Positions 6,195-34,167 of a stretch of 47,146 nucleotides of DNA are shown here, one piece after another. Below the pieces are notes generated by a model. The model saw only the letters and a program-made list of their open reading frames with translations, ran no database searches and was not told where the DNA came from. The position numbers were made by a program, and so were the translations under genes. The stretch spans positions 1 to 47,146 of the forward strand of contig LCAH01000005.1 of assembly GCA_000996355.1 (NCBI GenBank), given 5' to 3'. This DNA is from Candidatus Uhrbacteria bacterium GW2011_GWC2_41_11. GTDB lineage: Bacteria > Patescibacteriota > Patescibacteriia > UBA9934 > GWF2-40-263. Within the stretch, counting starts at the first letter, position 1. Each line of letters opens with the position of its first letter.

Positions 6195-7484
6195 TTATGC
6201 TGCCAAGGCATCCGAATTACGGATACCAACAATATTCAATCGGAATGACGGTGCTTGGACAACTGGAATCTTCGTTCCGTCCAGACAATCCTCGAACATC
6301 CGCAAATCCACGTCATTCAGACAAAAGACGTTAAAAGAACCGATCCGCTTCTCGAGAAGCAAGGCGCCAATTTCCTCTGGCGTCGTTTCTTCTTCCCGAC
6401 CACGAAAAATCGTGCTGTCCCGACGATCGCAGATAAGAACACGCATCAGGTCAGACACAGTTCCACCCACAATCTCGCGGCCGTTTCGTTCGGAAATGAG
6501 ATAAGCCACGCGATCTTCGTGAAACGGCTGTTCCTCGAATCGGACACGAACGCGGTATTCCTTGTGTCCTCTTTCTTCGAGAAATGTTCCAATCTGTTCG
6601 GTTAGGGCCTGACGCACGTCCTTGAGTCCCTCTGTCAGACGTGGACGAATTGCCTTGATTTCAACGACCATACAGGTCGCGATCCAGTATGACTGGACAG
6701 TGAACCCGAGAATACCAGGATGGCGATTGACAATGCCAGAAATAAATTCAGTCGTTTCTGCATCCAATGCAGCATGATTGATCTTTTTCCAAGCATCCGT
6801 CACGATCCCCTTGGCAGTCCCAAGCATAAGCCAAGCCATCCCAAGACCGCAGAGGTATTCAATCCATCCAAAAGATGGAATGAAAACCTGAAGAAGGATA
6901 CCAGCAAATGCCAGTGCATCTAATCGTCCATCACTTGCTGTTTCTTCTCCATCATCCTCGATAAGCCGACGAGCGTATTTCTTTCCAACTCCAATCTGGA
7001 AGCGACTCATCCGAAAAAGAACAAGTGCACTCACTCCCATGACCAAAGCTGAAATGAGACGCGGAGTTGTTTCCATAACCACCAATTCAGGAATCGGTAG
7101 AAATGGAATAACCTTGATTTGCTCGAGTGAACCAGGAGAGACAACCAATATAATCCCGAACACGGATTTGAGTCCGATCTCATACAAGGCGAGAAATCCA
7201 AGTGAAAGACCAATACCAAGAGAAATAAACGGCTCAATACCACTTTTTCCCCAGATATGTTCTTTTGTCTTTCCAGAATTCCCTACCTGCACTCCCAACA
7301 ATATCAATATTGCTGTCAAAATATCGCTCGTCTGATGCCAGGCATCTGCCTCGAGCAACGGCGAGTGGAACATGAGTCCAGGAATCATTTTTCCAGGCAC
7401 CATGATCAAATACATGATCAGGATGGCAGTCATGGCTCCGGTTGGAGTCTGAAACCAGGACACTTTCTGTTTCATTCGGTCCAT
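6195..7484 (-). CDS. Cation diffusion facilitator (CDF) family transporter with extra C-terminal domain
   Basis: 429 aa, longer than a typical CDF protein (about 300). It has several membrane segments. TM2 carries the metal-site pattern HxxxD (H50/D54 in EADAWHQTSD), and the cognate later helix has DxxxD (D185/D189 in ASDGRLDALAF) in place of the commoner HxxxD. The cytoplasmic domain (residues about 240-315) resembles the CDF C-terminal domain. Residues about 320-429 form an added alpha/beta domain (EEIGALLLEKRIGSFNVFCLND...IPVVQA) faintly like NifX/dinitrogenase-cofactor domains that are fused to some CDFs. Expected role: export of divalent metal ions across the membrane. Good SD (AAGGAG) before ATG 7484; 19 nt after the upstream USP-like gene. 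Metal specificity unknown. Confidence 0.8.
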   Translation of the reverse strand: MDRMKQKVSWFQTPTGAMTAILIMYLIMVPGKMIPGLMFHSPLLEADAWHQTSDILTAILILLGVQVGNSGKTKEHIWGKSGIEPFISLGIGLSLGFLALYEIGLKSVFGIILVVSPGSLEQIKVIPFLPIPELVVMETTPRLISALVMGVSALVLFRMSRFQIGVGKKYARRLIEDDGEETASDGRLDALAFAGILLQVFIPSFGWIEYLCGLGMAWLMLGTAKGIVTDAWKKINHAALDAETTEFISGIVNRHPGILGFTVQSYWIATCMVVEIKAIRPRLTEGLKDVRQALTEQIGTFLEERGHKEYRVRVRFEEQPFHEDRVAYLISERNGREIVGGTVSDLMRVLICDRRDSTIFRGREEETTPEEIGALLLEKRIGSFNVFCLNDVDLRMFEDCLDGTKIPVVQAPSFRLNIVGIRNSDALAA

Positions 7485-7503: not shown

Positions 7504-8283
7504 TTAATAACGGCCGATCGTCATGACCGGCACCAAGGTGATTTTGCGCAACGCATCCGGGTACCATCCGAACCAGATCTTGTCCCCGTATCCCATGAGA
7601 ATGAGGGGCGAGGAAATGCGCTGTGCCGCAAGATTTATCCCACGTGCCACATCAGTGTCCATGGCTGGAATTGACCGATGGAAAAGACCAAGCTGATCAG
7701 CCGCTTCCTCCGCAGATTCGAGAATCTCTCTGGCAGATTCGTTCATATGATCCGACGGATCATCGGACATTACGCTCTTATCCCGGAAAGTAGTGTGGTA
7801 AAATACCACTTTCTCAAACCCCATGGCAGCGATAAGTGGCAGACCGATTTCCACGGTCCGCAAGGCTGAATCCCGAGTTCCGAGTGGAATCAAAACCTCA
7901 CCTTCTCCACGCGCGCAGAGCGTTCCCTCGTACGCCGGAGACAGAACATTTGCTTCCTTGCGCATGTTCCCAAATTCATTACTGATGACCAGCATGTTTT
8001 TTGGAATAGCGTAGGTTTTGAGGTCGATACGAAGGATCGTAAACCTCATGAGACCATAGGATTTCGTCCCAATCCATTGCTGGATCGTTCGTATAATCCC
8101 CTGTTCTTCCTCGACAAGAAGATCTTGATCTTCCATTGGATCCGAACCGACGTCGATAAAAACATACAGAACGGACTGCCCGAAATGTCGGACAAGTTCA
8201 GCCGCGAAAAACGCTTCTGAACGCGATTCCGGCGTGTCTCGAAAGATAAAGCCGATATTCGGACCGTTTCCGGTTTTCTTCAT
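7504..8283 (-). CDS. Universal stress protein-like, probable tandem UspA domains
   Basis: 259 aa, about two Usp lengths. The second half is the clearer: VLIPLGTRDSALRTVEIGLPLIAAMGFEKVVFYH begins a Usp-type Rossmann-like domain and INLAAQRISSPLILMGYG...VPVMTIGRY fits its C-terminal strand. The first half (IGFIFRDTPESRSEAFFAAELVRHFGQSVLYVFID) looks like a diverged copy. Usp proteins bind ATP or act as stress signal partners; here the role is unknown. It leads the three-gene unit, with SD GGAGG before ATG 8283 and a consensus promoter at 8354-8382. Its position ahead of a metal transporter and an NAD-type enzyme suggests a stress or metal-homeostasis unit. Confidence 0.65.
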   Translation of the reverse strand: MKKTGNGPNIGFIFRDTPESRSEAFFAAELVRHFGQSVLYVFIDVGSDPMEDQDLLVEEEQGIIRTIQQWIGTKSYGLMRFTILRIDLKTYAIPKNMLVISNEFGNMRKEANVLSPAYEGTLCARGEGEVLIPLGTRDSALRTVEIGLPLIAAMGFEKVVFYHTTFRDKSVMSDDPSDHMNESAREILESAEEAADQLGLFHRSIPAMDTDVARGINLAAQRISSPLILMGYGDKIWFGWYPDALRKITLVPVMTIGRY

Positions 8284-8382: not shown

Positions 8383-9704
8383 TTTTTCTTAACAAAACTT
8401 TTTCCCCGTAATTCTCGATGATATTTGATAGCAAAACGATGGGCTTCATCACGAGCTTGTTGGAACATCTGTTTTCCTCGCTCAACAACCTGAGCTAATG
8501 CTAAATTTCTCGAATCAAAAACGAGACGATCTTGTTTGCGATCAAATCCTTTAGCCAAACCAACAAGAGGAATCTGAACATCAAATTGATTCAATACATC
8601 TTGCACTTTACCCACCTGTCCTTCCCCGCCATCAATAACCATAAGCACAGGAAGTGGCCATGTATCAGGAAACTGTTTTACTCGCGCAAGACGTCGACGC
8701 AAAACTTCTTCCATCATTGCCACATCATTTGAACCTTGAACGGTTTTAATTTTGAATTTTCGATATTCTTTTTTTGCAGGTTTTCCATCTAAAAACACAA
8801 CCATGGATCCTACCGCAGATGTGCCGGAAATATTACTAATGTCATAACACTCAATACGACCATTCAGATCAATTCCTTCTTTTTGTTCAATTTTCGCAAA
8901 AGGAAGATCAGCATCTTCTTTCATCACAAGCGCAACATCTTGAATATGTTCAAGGGCAAAAAGATTGTTGCGTAGTTTTGCTGCTTGTTCGAAACGATGA
9001 AGACGTGCTTCATGCTCCATTTCTTTTTTGATTTCTCGCATGAGTTCTGTTTTCCTTCCTTCAAAAAATAAAATGAGTTGTCGAATGATTCGATGATATT
9101 CTTTTGCCGTAATCGCTCCCGTGCATACACCTGGACATTTTTTAATATGCACATTGAAACAGGCTTTTCGTTTTCCTGTTACTTCGGGCGGCTGACAGAT
9201 ACTCCACGGAATCATTTTTCGAATGAGATCAAGCGCACGACGCAAAGCCTGAGCACTTGTATAAGGACCAAATACAGCCAAAAAATGCTTTTTTGCCACA
9301 GGAGAAAGTTTGCGTTCAAATGGATTGATATGAAGACGCTCGAGTTCAAGACCACGCATCAAAAGCGGACGCGGATACGCTTCGTTTGTGATCACAAGAT
9401 ACAAAAATGTTTTATCGTCACGTTGCAGAATATTATATTTTGGACGTTTGGCTTTAATTTGATTTGCCTCAAGCACAAGCGCTTCAATCACGGTTCCTGT
9501 TTGCACATAATCAATACGAGCAATATTTGAAACCATATCTGCAATCCGATTATCATGTGCCTTTGTAAAATACGAACCAACTCGCTTTTTGAGTGAGGTT
9601 GCTTTTCCAACATACAGAAGTTCTCCGGACATGTCGTAATAAAAATAGACACCGGGGCTGTCTGGAAGTTCTTTATTTTTTATTGTGATGTGTGAAGGGA
9701 TCAT
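8379..9704 (-). CDS. uvrC: Excinuclease ABC subunit C, short form
   Basis: 441 aa against about 600 in E. coli. The N-terminal GIY-YIG nuclease domain is clear (DSPGVYFYYDMSGELLYVGKATSLKKRVGSYF), followed by the Cys-bearing linker, a UVR motif (ARLHRFEQAAKLRNNLFALE) that contacts UvrB, and the RNase H-like 5'-incision domain (IECYDISNISGTSAVGSMVVF...VIDGGEGQ...RDEAHRFAI.YHR). The protein stops about 15 residues after that domain, so the C-terminal helix-hairpin-helix DNA-binding pair is missing. It makes both incisions flanking bulky DNA lesions together with UvrA/UvrB. No uvrA or uvrB is in the window. Confidence 0.95.
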   Translation of the reverse strand: MIPSHITIKNKELPDSPGVYFYYDMSGELLYVGKATSLKKRVGSYFTKAHDNRIADMVSNIARIDYVQTGTVIEALVLEANQIKAKRPKYNILQRDDKTFLYLVITNEAYPRPLLMRGLELERLHINPFERKLSPVAKKHFLAVFGPYTSAQALRRALDLIRKMIPWSICQPPEVTGKRKACFNVHIKKCPGVCTGAITAKEYHRIIRQLILFFEGRKTELMREIKKEMEHEARLHRFEQAAKLRNNLFALEHIQDVALVMKEDADLPFAKIEQKEGIDLNGRIECYDISNISGTSAVGSMVVFLDGKPAKKEYRKFKIKTVQGSNDVAMMEEVLRRRLARVKQFPDTWPLPVLMVIDGGEGQVGKVQDVLNQFDVQIPLVGLAKGFDRKQDRLVFDSRNLALAQVVERGKQMFQQARDEAHRFAIKYHRELRGKSFVKKN

Positions 9705-9722
9705 GGTGTGTTTGGTTGGTTT

Positions 9723-9758
9723 GTAGAAAATGTAGAAGGCGTTGAAAGTGTAAAATAT
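9723..9758. repeat. Four-unit 9-nt periodic sequence (left arm of inverted pair)
   Basis: Four perfect-period units of the form GT(A/T)(G/A)AANNN: GTAGAAAAT, GTAGAAGGC, GTTGAAAGT, GTAAAATAT. A similar array lies in opposite orientation at 10791-10835. It sits in the uvrC leader. Confidence 0.55.
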
Positions 9759-9970: not shown

Positions 9971-10696
9971 TTACCCAAACAGCGGAGCGGGGATGTCGGT
10001 CTGGGTGCCTGTTTCGGTCGGTGTCGCGGTCGTGACCTCCTCCTCTTCCGGTTCTTCCGGTCTGGTCAGATCTTCGACCTTGTAGGTCATCCGACCTTTT
10101 TCCTGGACCACGACCAAACTGCGCCTCCAGGGGTTCTTTTTCCCTGGCTTAGCTCCGACGAAGAGGACAATCGAGTCCAGACGGCGAACCTTGCCATCTT
10201 GTCCGGTCGTCTCATTGAGATAGACCGATCCATTGTTGAATCGGTAACCCATGAGAACTTCCTGGACAGCAGAAGGCATTGCCTCCGTAACAGGTGTCTC
10301 AGCTTCAGCAACCTCCGCAACAGGTCGCCGGCTGAACACCAGCACATTGACCGGCTTGCCTTGCCAATCATAGTACCAATGTCCGTCAGTATAAACATAA
10401 CTGGCCTCGAGAATGGCCAATATTGTCGGAGCCGGGAAAAGTTTCTCTTCGCGCTTGATGATCTCCACCCCGCGTTTCTGAGACACCTTTTCACCTTCCG
10501 ACGATTCGATCTGTCGGAGACCAGGGATGCTTCCGGTCAGATAAATCTGAACCAGAATCACTTCGGGCTCGGAGTATCGGCCCAAGAGCCCCTTCTTCTT
10601 CAGAGAGGTAGCTTCCTGTTTCTGAGGTGTGGCCTGACCGCTCTGGCCAGAAAACTTCTCTTGCAGACCCTTTACAAACTGAGAAAGCTCAGTCAT
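9971..10696 (-). CDS. Orphan hypothetical protein, 241 aa
   Basis: I do not recognise a family. The N-terminus is Gln/Lys-rich and probably disordered (KGLQEKFSGQSGQATPQKQEATSLKKK), the centre looks like a compact alpha/beta domain (EVILVQIYLTGSIPGLRQIES..., SIVLFVGAKPGKKNPWRRSLVVVQEKGRMTYKVEDL), and the C-terminal tail is acidic and Thr/Pro-rich (PEEPEEEEVTTATPTETGTQ). No signal peptide or membrane segment. It has SD TAGGAGG before ATG 10696, its own promoter at 10875-10903 and its own terminator. Codon use is visibly GC-richer than in the neighbours. Confidence 0.75.
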   Translation of the reverse strand: MTELSQFVKGLQEKFSGQSGQATPQKQEATSLKKKGLLGRYSEPEVILVQIYLTGSIPGLRQIESSEGEKVSQKRGVEIIKREEKLFPAPTILAILEASYVYTDGHWYYDWQGKPVNVLVFSRRPVAEVAEAETPVTEAMPSAVQEVLMGYRFNNGSVYLNETTGQDGKVRRLDSIVLFVGAKPGKKNPWRRSLVVVQEKGRMTYKVEDLTRPEEPEEEEVTTATPTETGTQTDIPAPLFG

Positions 10697-12531: not shown

Positions 12532-13374
12532 ATGTTTGTATTATCAGTAAAAAAATTGAGTGGTAAGGTCGTTGTATCCGGCAACGCGACAATCTCTGTC
12601 AAAGAAACAAAAGATGGAAAGGTATACTTCTGCGAAGAACCTTTTGCCATCATTGATTTCGATCAAACGACCGGAGATGCAATGATCCTTGCCCAAGGGG
12701 TCCGTCAAGGACCGGACGTGATTGACCAGGCGATAGGTCTTCTACGCCAACACGGCATTAAGGTCAACTTTGAAAAGCCGACCGAAATTGCACGTGTCTA
12801 TCGTCACGGCATCCGAGAAGGAAACCGACCTTGGGATATCCTCAACTGGCTTGTCCAGATCGGGTGTATTCTCCACGACGTCCGACTCTCTCCCGGATTT
12901 GGAGTCCCAAGAAAATTCGGAGACGGGCAATACACCTTCGATTTCTGCCTCGATCTTGCCGGAGGGAATTCGGAAGAGTATGGGATGCTCGACCTGAGCG
13001 ATTGGGGAAATGTATATCTCACTCCCGATGGTCCTTTCGTCTGGGAAGGAAGGAACCAAAGAGTGGGATATAATGATAGTTGGGACGATAATTGGGAGCG
13101 AGGAATGTTCGTTTCGACTTCCGCTCTTTTCCATTACCAAACGGAAGATGACAAGTTCGGGGCTAATCCGAGAAACGAGGAGGAACGGGTGATCCGTTAT
13201 CTCCATGGATTTCTCCTTCAACCGTCCTATCAGGATGATTCCGTCCAGACCGAATCGAACGAACAGGATGACCGGTTCGAGACGGACGGAGGTGAATGGA
13301 AGGAAAATGAAAAAGTCGAGGGGTCATATGACGAGTCTGATGACCTTCCTCGATTTACTCCGATGGGACGATGA
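12532..13374 (+). CDS. Orphan hypothetical protein, 280 aa
   Basis: Family not recognised. The track starts at 12400, inside a terminator and upstream of the promoter; ATG 12532 follows SD TAGGAGAAGAA and is the better start. The N-terminal 60 residues look like a small beta domain (MFVLSVKKLSGKVVVSGNAT...GKVYFCEEPFAIIDFDQ). The middle is Gly/Trp/Asp-rich (DNWERGMFVSTSALFHYQ), and residues about 235-280 are an acidic, low-complexity tail. No signal peptide or membrane segment. Codons are clearly GC-richer than in neighbours. Own promoter and terminator: an isolated transcription unit. Confidence 0.75.
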   Translation: MFVLSVKKLSGKVVVSGNATISVKETKDGKVYFCEEPFAIIDFDQTTGDAMILAQGVRQGPDVIDQAIGLLRQHGIKVNFEKPTEIARVYRHGIREGNRPWDILNWLVQIGCILHDVRLSPGFGVPRKFGDGQYTFDFCLDLAGGNSEEYGMLDLSDWGNVYLTPDGPFVWEGRNQRVGYNDSWDDNWERGMFVSTSALFHYQTEDDKFGANPRNEEERVIRYLHGFLLQPSYQDDSVQTESNEQDDRFETDGGEWKENEKVEGSYDESDDLPRFTPMGR

Positions 13375-30241: not shown

Positions 30242-31153
30242 ATGTTTTCTGGATCCCGATTTGAGAATTCTTTCCCAGGAGGTGGTTTTCATAGCGAAAC
30301 CGAACGAATACGAAAAGAACAAGAAATACCAGGCGAGGAATACATCCCGAGCACAGAGGATGAAATGCCTCTTGAAATGAAAAAAGAAGTCACTCGCATC
30401 GGACTCAACATCATGCGCAAAGTGTTTGCAAACATTCCGGATTATGTCGTGTTTGCAAGCACAGCCATGTCTTTATATGGATTAGAAGACGCCCCTGGAG
30501 ATTTTGATGCGACGGTTTCTTCAGAACAAACACTCAATCGAGTACGTGATCATTTGGCACGTGTACCTGGCGTTCAATTCAAGCATAACGGTTCATATAT
30601 CACCTCTCCATTGGATGGAACAAAAATTTTAAAAGGAAGTATTGTGATGGAATTTCCATCAACCAAACCAGGCGATAAATCGTCAAAGTACGCTTATCCA
30701 TTTGAAATTTTCTGCAAATCCACCCTCGTCCCGACGGAAACATTTCAAAAACAACATCGTGTTGAAGGTTTTAATGTTCTTACCCAGGAAGGCTTACAAC
30801 AGCAATACGCGAACAATACAAAAATGGAAGAACGTATTCAAAAATATATCGACCCAATTATTGACTATCTCACACATTCAGAAAGAGAACACCGCATTCT
30901 TGCAGAATTAGAACGCTGGCGAGCACATCAAGATTCTTCCTTTTTCTTTAAACCAATTGTTGGGGATATTCTTGATCAATTTGAAATACTTCCTGAAGAT
31001 TTGGAAAAATTCTATCAAATCAAACAAAAAAAATACGGAAAAATCTCTTCCGCAGATGTTGCGGAAATTCTCACAGGAGGTTTGAAAATTAAATTAAAAA
31101 AACGGCGAGAAAACATTCGAAAACTTATTGATTTTCAACGATTAGAGGTGTGA
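30242..31153 (+). CDS. Hypothetical protein, possible nucleotidyltransferase-fold
   Basis: 303 aa. The segment VFASTAMSLYGLEDAPGDFDATVSSEQTLNRV resembles the GGxAxxLYG...TxDxD region of AbiEii-like and other minimal nucleotidyltransferases, with one Asp pair visible (DFD). The C-terminal half is helical and basic (KKYGKISSADVAEILTGGLKIKLKKRRENIRKLIDF). The N-terminal 40 residues are polar and likely disordered. The fold assignment is weak; no partner toxin or antitoxin is adjacent. The 3' end overlaps the convergent AI-2E permease gene by 19 nt. Confidence 0.6.
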   Translation: MFSGSRFENSFPGGGFHSETERIRKEQEIPGEEYIPSTEDEMPLEMKKEVTRIGLNIMRKVFANIPDYVVFASTAMSLYGLEDAPGDFDATVSSEQTLNRVRDHLARVPGVQFKHNGSYITSPLDGTKILKGSIVMEFPSTKPGDKSSKYAYPFEIFCKSTLVPTETFQKQHRVEGFNVLTQEGLQQQYANNTKMEERIQKYIDPIIDYLTHSEREHRILAELERWRAHQDSSFFFKPIVGDILDQFEILPEDLEKFYQIKQKKYGKISSADVAEILTGGLKIKLKKRRENIRKLIDFQRLEV

Positions 31154-32199
31154 ACAGTTTTTGAAAAATCTTTTTGAAGAACCCCCGCTTTGTAAAGTTC
31201 CACAAGAACCAACACGGCAGAAAGAACCGTGGGACCCACAATCAAACCAATAGAACCAAACGTTTCAATGCCGCCAAGCATGAATACAAGAAGAAGAAGA
31301 GCGTGCATATGAGTGGTTCCTTTCATAAGGTACGGAGCCAAAAGATTATCAACGAGTCCAACAACCAAAATAGACCAAAGTGTCAACCCAACAGTTGCAA
31401 CCATATCTCCTGTAAAAAAGAGATAAACGATCGCCGGAACCATTACAAGACCAACTCCAACCAATGGAACTTGTGCAGCAACGACTGCAGCCGCTCCCCA
31501 AAGAAACGAGCCTGGCACCCCGAAAAAAGACATGCCGATCGTTGCAAAAATTCCCTGTGTTACGGCAACCATAAGTGCTCCGAATACAACGGAACGCACA
31601 GTTTCCACAATACGCTGCATAATCGCCTCATCCACCGTGTCTCGAAACGGACTCAATATCAAAATTTCTCGGCGCAGTTTATTCCGATCTGCGAGAAGAT
31701 AATACAAGGCAATAAAAAAGAGGATGGTGTTTATAGCAAATTTTGTGGAACTGGAAAAAAGATCATCCACATGTCCAAAAATCCATTCAGCAACACTTTT
31801 TGCAACTGCATTCAAATCCAACGCCAGCACCCGTTCACGTAAAAAAGAAGGAAGACTTTCTAACATGGCTGCAACCTGAACACGCGAAATCCACCCTCCG
31901 TCTCCCAGAGAACTTTGTAATAATTCCGTTGCTTGTCGAACCATGAGTAAAAGAACAAAAAAGATAGGAACGGCAATTAAGAGAAAAACAGCAAAAACCA
32001 AAAGAGCTGCGGCAAGTTTTTTTCGCTTGATCAATTGTTCAAGACGTTCATGAATTGGTGCACAAACAATGGCCGCAATTCCAGCTGTCAAAAGAGTAAG
32101 AACAAATGACTGAATCGTTGTCCAAGCAAGAAAAAGCACGATGACAGAAATCAAAAGAAAAAACCATCGTTCCAAAGACATTGAATGTTCCATGCGCAT
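31135..32199 (-). CDS. AI-2E family transporter / PerM-like permease
   Basis: 354 aa with about eight membrane segments. The first three helices, a long soluble loop (LLQSSLGDGGWISRVQVAAMLESLPSFLRERVLALDLNAVAKSV) and the C-terminal block GALMVAVTQGIFATIGMSFFGVPGSFLWGAAAVVAAQVPLVGVGLVMVPA...NLLAPYLMKGTTHMHALLLLVFMLGGIETFGSIGLIVGPTVLS are typical of the family. Substrate unknown; members range from signal exporters to Na+/H+ antiporters. A perfect -10 (TATAAT, 32208-32213) lies 8 nt before ATG 32199 and no SD is visible, suggesting a leaderless message. Confidence 0.92.
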   Translation of the reverse strand: MRMEHSMSLERWFFLLISVIVLFLAWTTIQSFVLTLLTAGIAAIVCAPIHERLEQLIKRKKLAAALLVFAVFLLIAVPIFFVLLLMVRQATELLQSSLGDGGWISRVQVAAMLESLPSFLRERVLALDLNAVAKSVAEWIFGHVDDLFSSSTKFAINTILFFIALYYLLADRNKLRREILILSPFRDTVDEAIMQRIVETVRSVVFGALMVAVTQGIFATIGMSFFGVPGSFLWGAAAVVAAQVPLVGVGLVMVPAIVYLFFTGDMVATVGLTLWSILVVGLVDNLLAPYLMKGTTHMHALLLLVFMLGGIETFGSIGLIVGPTVLSAVLVLVELYKAGVLQKDFSKTVHTSNR

Positions 32200-32298: not shown

Positions 32299-32327
32299 TT
32301 GACAAATATTTTTATTTATGGTAAACT
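32299..32327 (+). promoter_or_regulatory. Distal promoter P1 of the structured RNA
   Basis: TTGACA, 17-nt spacer ending TGG, TAAACT. Confidence 0.7.
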
Positions 32328-32377
32328 TATTTTTGTAAGGTTGAAATAAATAATAAACCAACATTTGTTACAAGCTA

Positions 32378-32406
32378 TTGACAAAAATTTTCAACCGTGG
32401 TATGCT
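32378..32406 (+). promoter_or_regulatory. Proximal promoter P2 of the structured RNA
   Basis: TTGACA, 17-nt spacer ending TGG (extended -10), TATGCT; predicted start near 32413. Confidence 0.8.
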
Positions 32407-32456
32407 AGAAGAGTTATAAAATTCAAATTAGTTCCCTTTCAGCATTTTTGGAAAAA

Positions 32457-32483
32457 ACAGTTTGAGAATCGAAACTGTTTTTT
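32457..32483 (+). terminator. Internal terminator-like hairpin near the 5' end of the structured RNA
   Basis: ACAGTTT / AAACTGT (32457-32463 / 32472-32478) followed by TTTTT, about 45 nt after the predicted start. It could attenuate the long transcript or release a short RNA. Confidence 0.55.
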
Positions 32484-33143
32484 CTAAGAATCGTGAGCGG
32501 GAGCGTTGTTATTCCGAAATCTCCCCCACGGCGTTGGCTGGATCATGGCATCAAAAGGATGGCTTATCCCCTGATGTATTGTTACATCAGACCCATCCCC
32601 CAACAATAGCCACCCGGCCGCGCATCGATGGCAGATTCGGGGACTGCCTGCCAATCACTTGTTCCCCGATTTTACCACCCGCGGGCGTCCCATCCCTACC
32701 AGGCATTCATCATCAGGCAGGGACCCTCGCGAATTTTTTGAAAGCCACCCCACCACTCTATCGAAAATACAGAGTCGGAGGGGCTGGCGATAACCAAGGG
32801 TCATTTTTCAGACCCATGAGAGTCCCTTTGGACTCATGAAAGAGAGAACAGAAATGTTCCTAAGACAATTTTGTAGACGATAGGAGACTAAGAGAGGGTC
32901 TCCGTTAACAAAAAAACTCTCTGAAGAAGGTGTACCCAGGTCTACCTTTAAAACCTGGCTTAGTCGCTTGTTGGTACCAACCCCCTATCGGCGCTGCTTC
33001 GCAACCGGGGGTCTGGTCGCACCGGAAAAACAGGTGACAAAAAACCAAAAACTTCTTCGAGAATCCCTCGACACGGCCCCACAACCATCGGGCGCCTACG
33101 GGATTAAAAATCTCGGAGAAAAACCAAGAAAGGAGGGTGAGAC

Positions 33144-33176
33144 ATGGCTTATTGTCATGAATCACCATTCTACTGA
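33144..33176 (+). CDS. Possible 10-codon mini-ORF inside the structured RNA
   Basis: AAGGAGG, a strong SD, lies 8 nt before ATG and the frame reads MAYCHESPFY then TGA. It is too short to judge by coding signals. The SD stands out because the rest of the region has no translatable frame. Confidence 0.25.
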   Translation: MAYCHESPFY

Positions 33177-33398
33177 ACCAAGGGGAGTCGACGACACCGA
33201 CCAGGCATTTTTGCCGGAGTTGCTCGTCGTGCGCGAAAAGCCAATCGACTCCCCCCACGCGAGACATCTTTTGGGGAGTTGATACGGGCTACCGCGGGCG
33301 CCTTTCGCCTGCGTCGGAGCCTTGCTGTCGGCTCCCCTTGTCTTTTGAGGACTTGAAGAAAATGCTTCGAGAATTCAAAAGAGGAAGAGACGACTCTG

Positions 33399-33434
33399 AA
33401 AATCCGCCCTTAACCCGGGCGGATTTTCGTTTTT
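33399..33434 (+). terminator. Rho-independent terminator of the structured RNA
   Basis: Perfect 11-bp stem AAAATCCGCCC / GGGCGGATTTT followed by CGTTTTTT. Confidence 0.92.
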
Positions 33435-33462
33435 TCTGATTTCACGTTATGATCTTTTTGTT

Positions 33463-34167
33463 ATGAAACAAGAAATACGCCTCAATAAATTCCTTGTCAG
33501 TGTTGGTGCATGCTCCCGCCGAGAAGCAGATCGTCTGATTGAGGACGAAAGAGTGAGTGTGAATAGAACTCCAGCTCTTCTTGGACAAAAAGTCACAGGA
33601 AAAGAAATCATCACGATTGATGGAGAACCTGTTGGCAAACCACCCACAAAACGTATCTACATGGCATATCACAAACCTATTGGCATTATTTGTACAAGCG
33701 ATCCGAATGCAGAAGACAATATTATTGAAGCGATCAATTTTCCCGAACGTATTTTTCACATTGGACGACTGGACGTTGCTTCTTCTGGACTCATTCTTCT
33801 CACAAACGACGGAGATATCGTGAACCATATTTTACGTGCAGAAGAACAACATGAAAAAGAATATGTGATCCAAACAGATCGACCTCTCACAGATATTTTT
33901 CTCCATCGCATGGAAACAGGTGTGGTCATAGACGACCGCCACACCCTTCCGGCAACAGTTAAAAGACTGGGACCTGATCGTTTTACTCTGACCCTTATCG
34001 AAGGACGCAATCGTCAAATTCGCAAAATGTGCGAAGCACTTGGTTATGAAGTCAAACAACTCAAACGTATTCGTGTCATGAATATTCAACTCGGAGATCT
34101 TCCGCCCGGTCGTTGGCGATTTCTCACTCCACAAGAAGAAAAAGAATTGTTGGAAAACAAAAAATAA
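33463..34167 (+). CDS. rluF: RsuA/RluB-family pseudouridine synthase, RluF-like
   Basis: 234 aa. N-terminal S4 RNA-binding domain (IRLNKFLVSVGACSRREADRLIEDERVSVN), then the catalytic domain with HIGRLDVASSGLILLTNDGD, where the Asp of GRLD is the nucleophile, and EGRNRQIRKMCEALGYEVKQLKRIRVMNIQLGDLPPGRWR. The segment IYMAYHKPIGIICTSDP...DNIIEAINFPERIF is closest to RluF, which modifies 23S rRNA near the peptidyl-transferase centre. The exact target is inferred. A TATGAT lies 9 nt before ATG and no SD is present, so the message may be leaderless. Confidence 0.88.
   Translation: MKQEIRLNKFLVSVGACSRREADRLIEDERVSVNRTPALLGQKVTGKEIITIDGEPVGKPPTKRIYMAYHKPIGIICTSDPNAEDNIIEAINFPERIFHIGRLDVASSGLILLTNDGDIVNHILRAEEQHEKEYVIQTDRPLTDIFLHRMETGVVIDDRHTLPATVKRLGPDRFTLTLIEGRNRQIRKMCEALGYEVKQLKRIRVMNIQLGDLPPGRWRFLTPQEEKELLENKK

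Follow-up and report, generated by a model that had tools for sequence, protein, structure and literature searches.

A candidate large structured noncoding RNA upstream of rluB in a Candidatus Uhrbacteria genome, and a different TrmB-linked RNA class in its relatives

The window, meaning the whole stretch of DNA analysed here, is 47,146 nucleotides long and is contig C5 of a Candidatus Uhrbacteria genome (G000) of 1.07 Mb that is 99.4% complete. A GC-rich region of about 1 kb lies between a divergent AI-2E family permease gene and rluB, which encodes an RluB/RluF-type pseudouridine synthase. The RluB protein of the window is closest to proteins of Candidatus Uhrbacteria and related Patescibacteria, with 59–64% identity. 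The G+C content of the region, determined in 200-nt windows, is 0.42–0.58, compared with 0.27–0.28 immediately upstream and approximately 0.40–0.45 in the neighbouring genes, which agrees with the GC-rich island reported in a preliminary description of this DNA. The locus contains the following features.

31135–32199, minus strand: AI-2E family permease (PF01594), divergent, upstream of the RNA
32299–32327, plus strand: promoter P1, TTGACA (32299–32304), 17-nt spacer and TAAACT (32322–32327) with extended −10 TGG; 10/12 match
32378–32406, plus strand: promoter P2, TTGACA (32378–32383), 17-nt spacer and TATGCT (32401–32406) with extended −10 TGG; 10/12 match
32412–33435, plus strand: putative structured noncoding RNA, measuring about 1.02 kb when started at P2, with the start site placed a few bases past the −10 box; called from the folding z-score, the lack of periodicity and the lack of an Rfam family at the gathering score
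33397–33435, plus strand: intrinsic terminator, 13-bp stem with 7 G-C pairs and a T6 tract (stem-loop 33397–33429)
33448–33453, plus strand: TATGAT, probable −10 box of rluB's own near-leaderless promoter, from the sequence
33463–34167, plus strand: rluB (PF00849, PF01479), downstream of the RNA

The pattern TTGACA-N14/15-TGGTA occurs at four sites in the 47-kb window, against 0.03 expected. Two of these sites precede the RNA, one precedes the gene at 9971–10696 (minus strand) and one precedes the gene at 7504–8283 (minus strand). About 28 nt separate the end of the terminator from the start codon of rluB. Judged from these promoter and terminator signals, 32299–33435 on the plus strand probably constitutes a self-contained transcription unit, in which two strong tandem promoters would direct the synthesis of an RNA of about 1.02–1.1 kb that stops before rluB. 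The two promoters with 17-nt spacing and the terminator had been proposed beforehand, and both proposals hold.

The region carries no coding signal. Its three-base periodicity has a signal-to-noise ratio of 1.0 on both strands, compared with 7.2, 10.7 and 16.5 for three genes of the window, and none of its three longest open reading frames has a Pfam match. An origin as a protein gene or recent pseudogene was rejected on these two grounds, which bears out the earlier statement that no credible protein frame is present. The RNA is called noncoding because the coding signal is absent, rather than because it folds strongly, and this identity is well supported.

The structure of the RNA is a single-sequence prediction based on partition-function pair probabilities (P). 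Its main elements, together with sequence motifs located in the same region, are listed below.

32431–32504, plus strand: long 5' hairpin, 30 pairs predicted, mean pair probability 0.98
32505–32515, plus strand: 5' strand of a predicted long-range core-closing helix, pairing with 33383–33394, P = 0.93
32531–32623, plus strand: predicted branched hairpin, outer helix 32531–32541/32614–32623, tip 32571–32578/32583–32590, P 0.97–0.99
32744–32788, plus strand: predicted 15-bp hairpin, P = 0.98
32846–32859, plus strand: GAAA tetraloop hairpin GAACA-GAAA-UGUUC, from the sequence
32927–32958, plus strand: possible H-type pseudoknot from the sequence, AAGGU (32927–32931)/ACCUU (32944–32948) and CCAGGU (32936–32941)/ACCUGG (32953–32958)
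33130–33176, plus strand: ideal Shine-Dalgarno sequence AAGGAGG and 10-codon frame MAYCHESPFY (ATG 33144 to TGA 33176) within a hairpin, from the sequence
33179–33340, plus strand: predicted branched 3' domain closed by CAAGGGGAGUCGAC/GUCGGCUCCCCUUG, P = 0.80; the basis of single-sequence model R3
33341–33382, plus strand: predicted 16-bp hairpin, P = 0.99
33383–33394, plus strand: 3' strand of the predicted core-closing helix, P = 0.93

The folding of the region is exceptional. The minimum free energy of the RNA is −392 kcal/mol, compared with −301.6 ± 9.4 kcal/mol in 20 shuffled sequences (z = −9.65), and none of the 20 shuffles is as stable. With the 5' hairpin and the terminator removed, the core still has a z-score of −6.8 on the plus strand and −5.1 on the minus strand. 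P exceeds 0.8 in more than ten helices and 0.9 in many, in line with the ten or more strong hairpins noted previously. The helix 32505–32515/33383–33394 encloses about 0.87 kb and is predicted to close a multibranched core. Both motifs noted in the preliminary description, the GAAA tetraloop hairpin and the pseudoknot, can form from the sequence, but neither, taken alone, goes beyond chance in 1 kb. The first base of the GAAA hairpin overlaps a predicted AGAGAG/CUCUCU helix (32841–32846 with 32917–32922). The predicted fold probably corresponds to the real fold of the RNA. An independent RNA gene is suggested because the region has its own promoters and terminator, a strongly negative z-score, a sense core that, measured against shuffles, folds better than its antisense and a high-probability closing helix.

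The RNA has no detectable relatives. No family of Rfam 15, including OLE, ROOL, GOLLD, RNase P, tmRNA and the group I and II introns, matched at the gathering threshold, as the earlier claim of no known family had stated. Matches at E ≤ 10 were all sub-threshold, and the best of them was rnk_pseudo (RF01772; 33343–33436, 39.2 bits against a cut-off of 55 bits). This identity was rejected because the resemblance is mainly to the terminator hairpin; moreover, unlike the rnk_pseudo leader, the window RNA has no adjoining rnk gene. The RNase P RNA is located elsewhere in the same genome. The window RNA is present in a single copy in its own genome, and blastn searches of 43 family, 73 order and 381 class genomes found no relative. 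Those weak blastn matches that were inspected proved mostly to lie within open reading frames or to be terminators, and they were rejected. Phage and plasmid collections contained no relative, and three exact probes, each drawn from a different part of the RNA, found nothing in viral contigs. Model R3, the covariance model of the 3' domain, matched only its own genome among 72 order genomes. G017, the only genome of the same genus (89% complete), has no such RNA 5' of rluB, and its AI-2E gene lies elsewhere. When 760 kb of G017 was scanned for folding, no obvious counterpart appeared among the top regions, which were mostly coding segments and an unrelated repeated element.

A structured element of about 125 nt (GGACCTCTGAAAAAGGGATGGATTTTCGTTGAACGGGCTGTTGAGCCCC...AGAGGTCCC) occurs twice in G017, at L051 (about 12790–12920, minus strand) and L239 (13750–13870), and is possibly a dispersed repeat.

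Restriction of the window RNA to one lineage is supported as far as the search reached. The preliminary description had proposed a new class specific to this lineage; the lineage restriction stands, but the term class is not established because a second member was not found in the searched genomes.

GOLLD, ROOL and OLE are large, ornate noncoding RNAs of hundreds of nucleotides, GOLLD often exceeding 800, and their function is mostly unknown (Rfam families; cryo-EM study PMC12286853). The window RNA is comparable to them in size, in being noncoding and in having a closed multibranched predicted fold. The difference is that all three are defined by covariation-conserved structure, whereas the window RNA is known from one sequence. 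Unlike GOLLD, it has no visible phage or tRNA-array context.

The reading that we favour, somewhat above an even chance, is that the window encodes a large structured RNA, lineage-specific and transcribed on its own, which would resemble OLE, ROOL and GOLLD in its action while standing outside those families. The transcript would not be translated as a protein gene and would fold into a long 5' hairpin, a closed core of about 0.87 kb and a 3' terminator. It would be a stable and abundant structural RNA, serving as a protein scaffold or forming an RNA-only assembly, and a role in trans may be proposed by analogy with those RNAs. A more specific proposal is that it represents a class of large ornate RNAs that is new and so far seen in one Patescibacteria lineage, a compact closed particle made abundantly from tandem strong promoters and possibly a homo-oligomer or the core of a ribonucleoprotein; this is conceivable but doubtful.

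Strong folding does not set noncoding RNA apart in this window, contrary to what the preliminary description had assumed. No other segment sampled in the window folds as strongly as the coding segment 10000–10889 (minus strand), whose z-score against dinucleotide shuffles is −12.2. The gene at 9971–10696 (minus strand) keeps a z-score of −8.2 against synonymous shuffles, which retain protein and codons. This coding gene folds more strongly than the RNA. The gene itself is an orphan of 241 aa situated behind TTGACA-N17-TATATT with an extended −10, and no homologue was found among 41 other family genomes. The 600-nt stretches after TTGACA-type promoters have a mean z-score of −2.9 (n = 33), compared with −1.1 for gene starts (n = 90; p = 1e-4), and the association persists without the window promoters (p = 0.0015). 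The sample comprised the window, G017 and several relatives, with gene-start controls from G017 and the window only, and the promoter pattern had been relaxed after a stricter version found just three sites in G017. These results are suggestive of a tendency of strongly promoted transcripts in this lineage, coding ones included, to be hyperfolded. Strong folding therefore speaks for a strongly made and stable transcript.

A generic explanation is that selection in this lineage favours compactness, for instance because it confers stability, in all transcripts from strong TTGACA/extended −10 promoters, coding or not. The window RNA would be one of these transcripts, perhaps a stability carrier or an offshoot of non-functional sequence, and its fold would have no specific function. 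The greater average folding of strong-promoter transcripts, the highly folded coding gene and the promoter type that the RNA shares with the genes at 9971–10696 and 7504–8283 all agree with it. However, a sequence derived from an mRNA should retain triplet periodicity, and the ratio of 1.0 in the RNA differs from 7.2 in the folded gene. In addition, the predicted high-probability helix joining the two ends of the RNA exceeds local hairpins. We regard generic hyperfolding as unlikely, although it survives better than the alternatives that follow.

The synteny check upstream of rluB, advised in the preliminary description, revealed no relative of the window RNA but uncovered a different structured RNA in three Uhrbacteria (L054, L056 and L057). 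In these loci, a strong promoter is followed by the leader, by small, GC-rich genes with repeated hairpins between them, and by a terminator before rluB. The leader is about 1.1 kb in L054 and L056, where the 5' end is present, and about 0.7–1.1 kb across the class; related genomes carry it in conserved form. Its loci and those of the cassette genes are as follows.

L054, 5335–6475: leader
L056, 4815–5990: leader; 6283–6627: cassette gene
L156, 4815–5900: leader
L155, 7725–8413: leader; 8413–9741: cassette genes
L154: leader; cassette genes on the reverse strand
L183 and L184: leader and cassette genes
L177–L180: leader

The core of this class is GURGUAAYGAGUGC-hairpin-GCAGUCCUUACYA. The motifs GAGAGA, CTCTC and GAGAGA lie at about 90–130, 160–270 and 220–360 nt from the −35 box, and a TTCACAA element is found 3' of the core in most members. 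In 12 core sequences, 11 of them distinct, 92.9% of cells are paired and 17 pairs are changed on both sides. The covariation score is 0.488, compared with 0.140 in shuffles, and slid controls are far lower. The core covariance model matches in 10 of 73 order genomes, G009 and G020 from the window's own family among them, and also in two genomes that belong to a different family of the same taxonomic class. No Rfam family matched the three leader loci scanned. A TrmB-family regulator is divergently encoded beside the leader, confirmed by Pfam for L054 and recognised by eye elsewhere. The genes behind the leader encode Csx3-like (PF09620), SAVED (PF18145), MYG1 (PF03690) and bpMoxR (PF20030) proteins, and a DUF1874-like protein was noted by eye without Pfam confirmation. 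The TrmB-linked operons may form an island for cyclic-oligonucleotide signalling or defence. An early hairpin of the leader was considered as an intrinsic terminator, and a simple terminator scan of two leaders gave no confirmation; attenuation by this RNA is speculation.

The shared position beside rluB first suggested that the window RNA is a member of this leader class, and it was rejected as such by R1 and R2, two covariance models of the core, and by the landmarks. On the window RNA region these models gave at best 9.8 bits, which is at chance level (E = 1.8 over the window), and they had no match anywhere in G000. The GAGAGA-CTCTC-GAGAGA series is missing at its usual positions, as is the TTCACAA element. 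The window RNA has neither a TrmB gene nor cassettes beside it; its neighbours are the AI-2E permease gene and rluB. The two RNAs are alike in having a strong TTGACA/extended −10 promoter and a large structured RNA, but the TrmB-linked leader heads many-gene operons, whereas the window RNA stops at its terminator.

In other family members (L011, L024, L029 and L033), strongly promoted and often GC-rich orphan open reading frames lie 5' of rluB, which suggests that the site upstream of rluB is a hot spot.

A looser kinship, in which the window RNA is a divergent or stripped TrmB-operon leader whose downstream cassette genes are gone, is improbable. In its favour are the occurrence of the leader class in the window's own family, the similar promoter and leader of similar length in L054 and L056, and the position 5' of rluB, with a terminator before that gene, in L054, L056 and L057. 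However, the covarying core, the GAGAGA/CTCTC series, TTCACAA, the TrmB gene and the cassettes are all absent at the window, and the unrelated frames on the rluB side elsewhere indicate that the shared position may mark only a hot spot.

Slightly less probable still is that the RNA acts in cis on rluB, as a long leader or attenuator, so that conditional readthrough of the terminator would express that gene. The RNA lies on the same strand as rluB and terminates shortly before its start codon. However, rluB probably has its own near-leaderless promoter, with the TATGAT box 10–15 nt 5' of the start codon, and TATCAT, TACCAT or TATGAT boxes occur likewise 5' of rluB in L053–L057. Because rluB has its own promoter-like box, as in relatives without the RNA, the RNA need not be its leader. 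Furthermore, no competing antiterminator is apparent in the predicted fold, and rluB of G017, in the same genus, has no such leader.

Least probable of all is a dual-function RNA or an mRNA for the peptide MAYCHESPFY with the remainder as untranslated structure: its AAGGAGG-N7-ATG is the sole such site in the whole window, with 0.07 expected, but it would provide one 10-codon frame per 1 kb, and ATG 33144 is buried in the predicted helix 33136–33166 (P = 1.0).

An independently transcribed, lineage-specific structured RNA is the reading favoured here. Few large structured RNAs are known from bacteria, and most of them lack an explanation. The by-products of this analysis, namely the covarying TrmB-linked RNA class and the hyperfolding tendency of the lineage, are more directly testable. 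A genome that is streamlined and probably host-dependent would pay a high price for retaining an RNA of about 1 kb that did nothing, and the apparent confinement of this one to a single lineage would indicate rapid origin or divergence of such RNAs.
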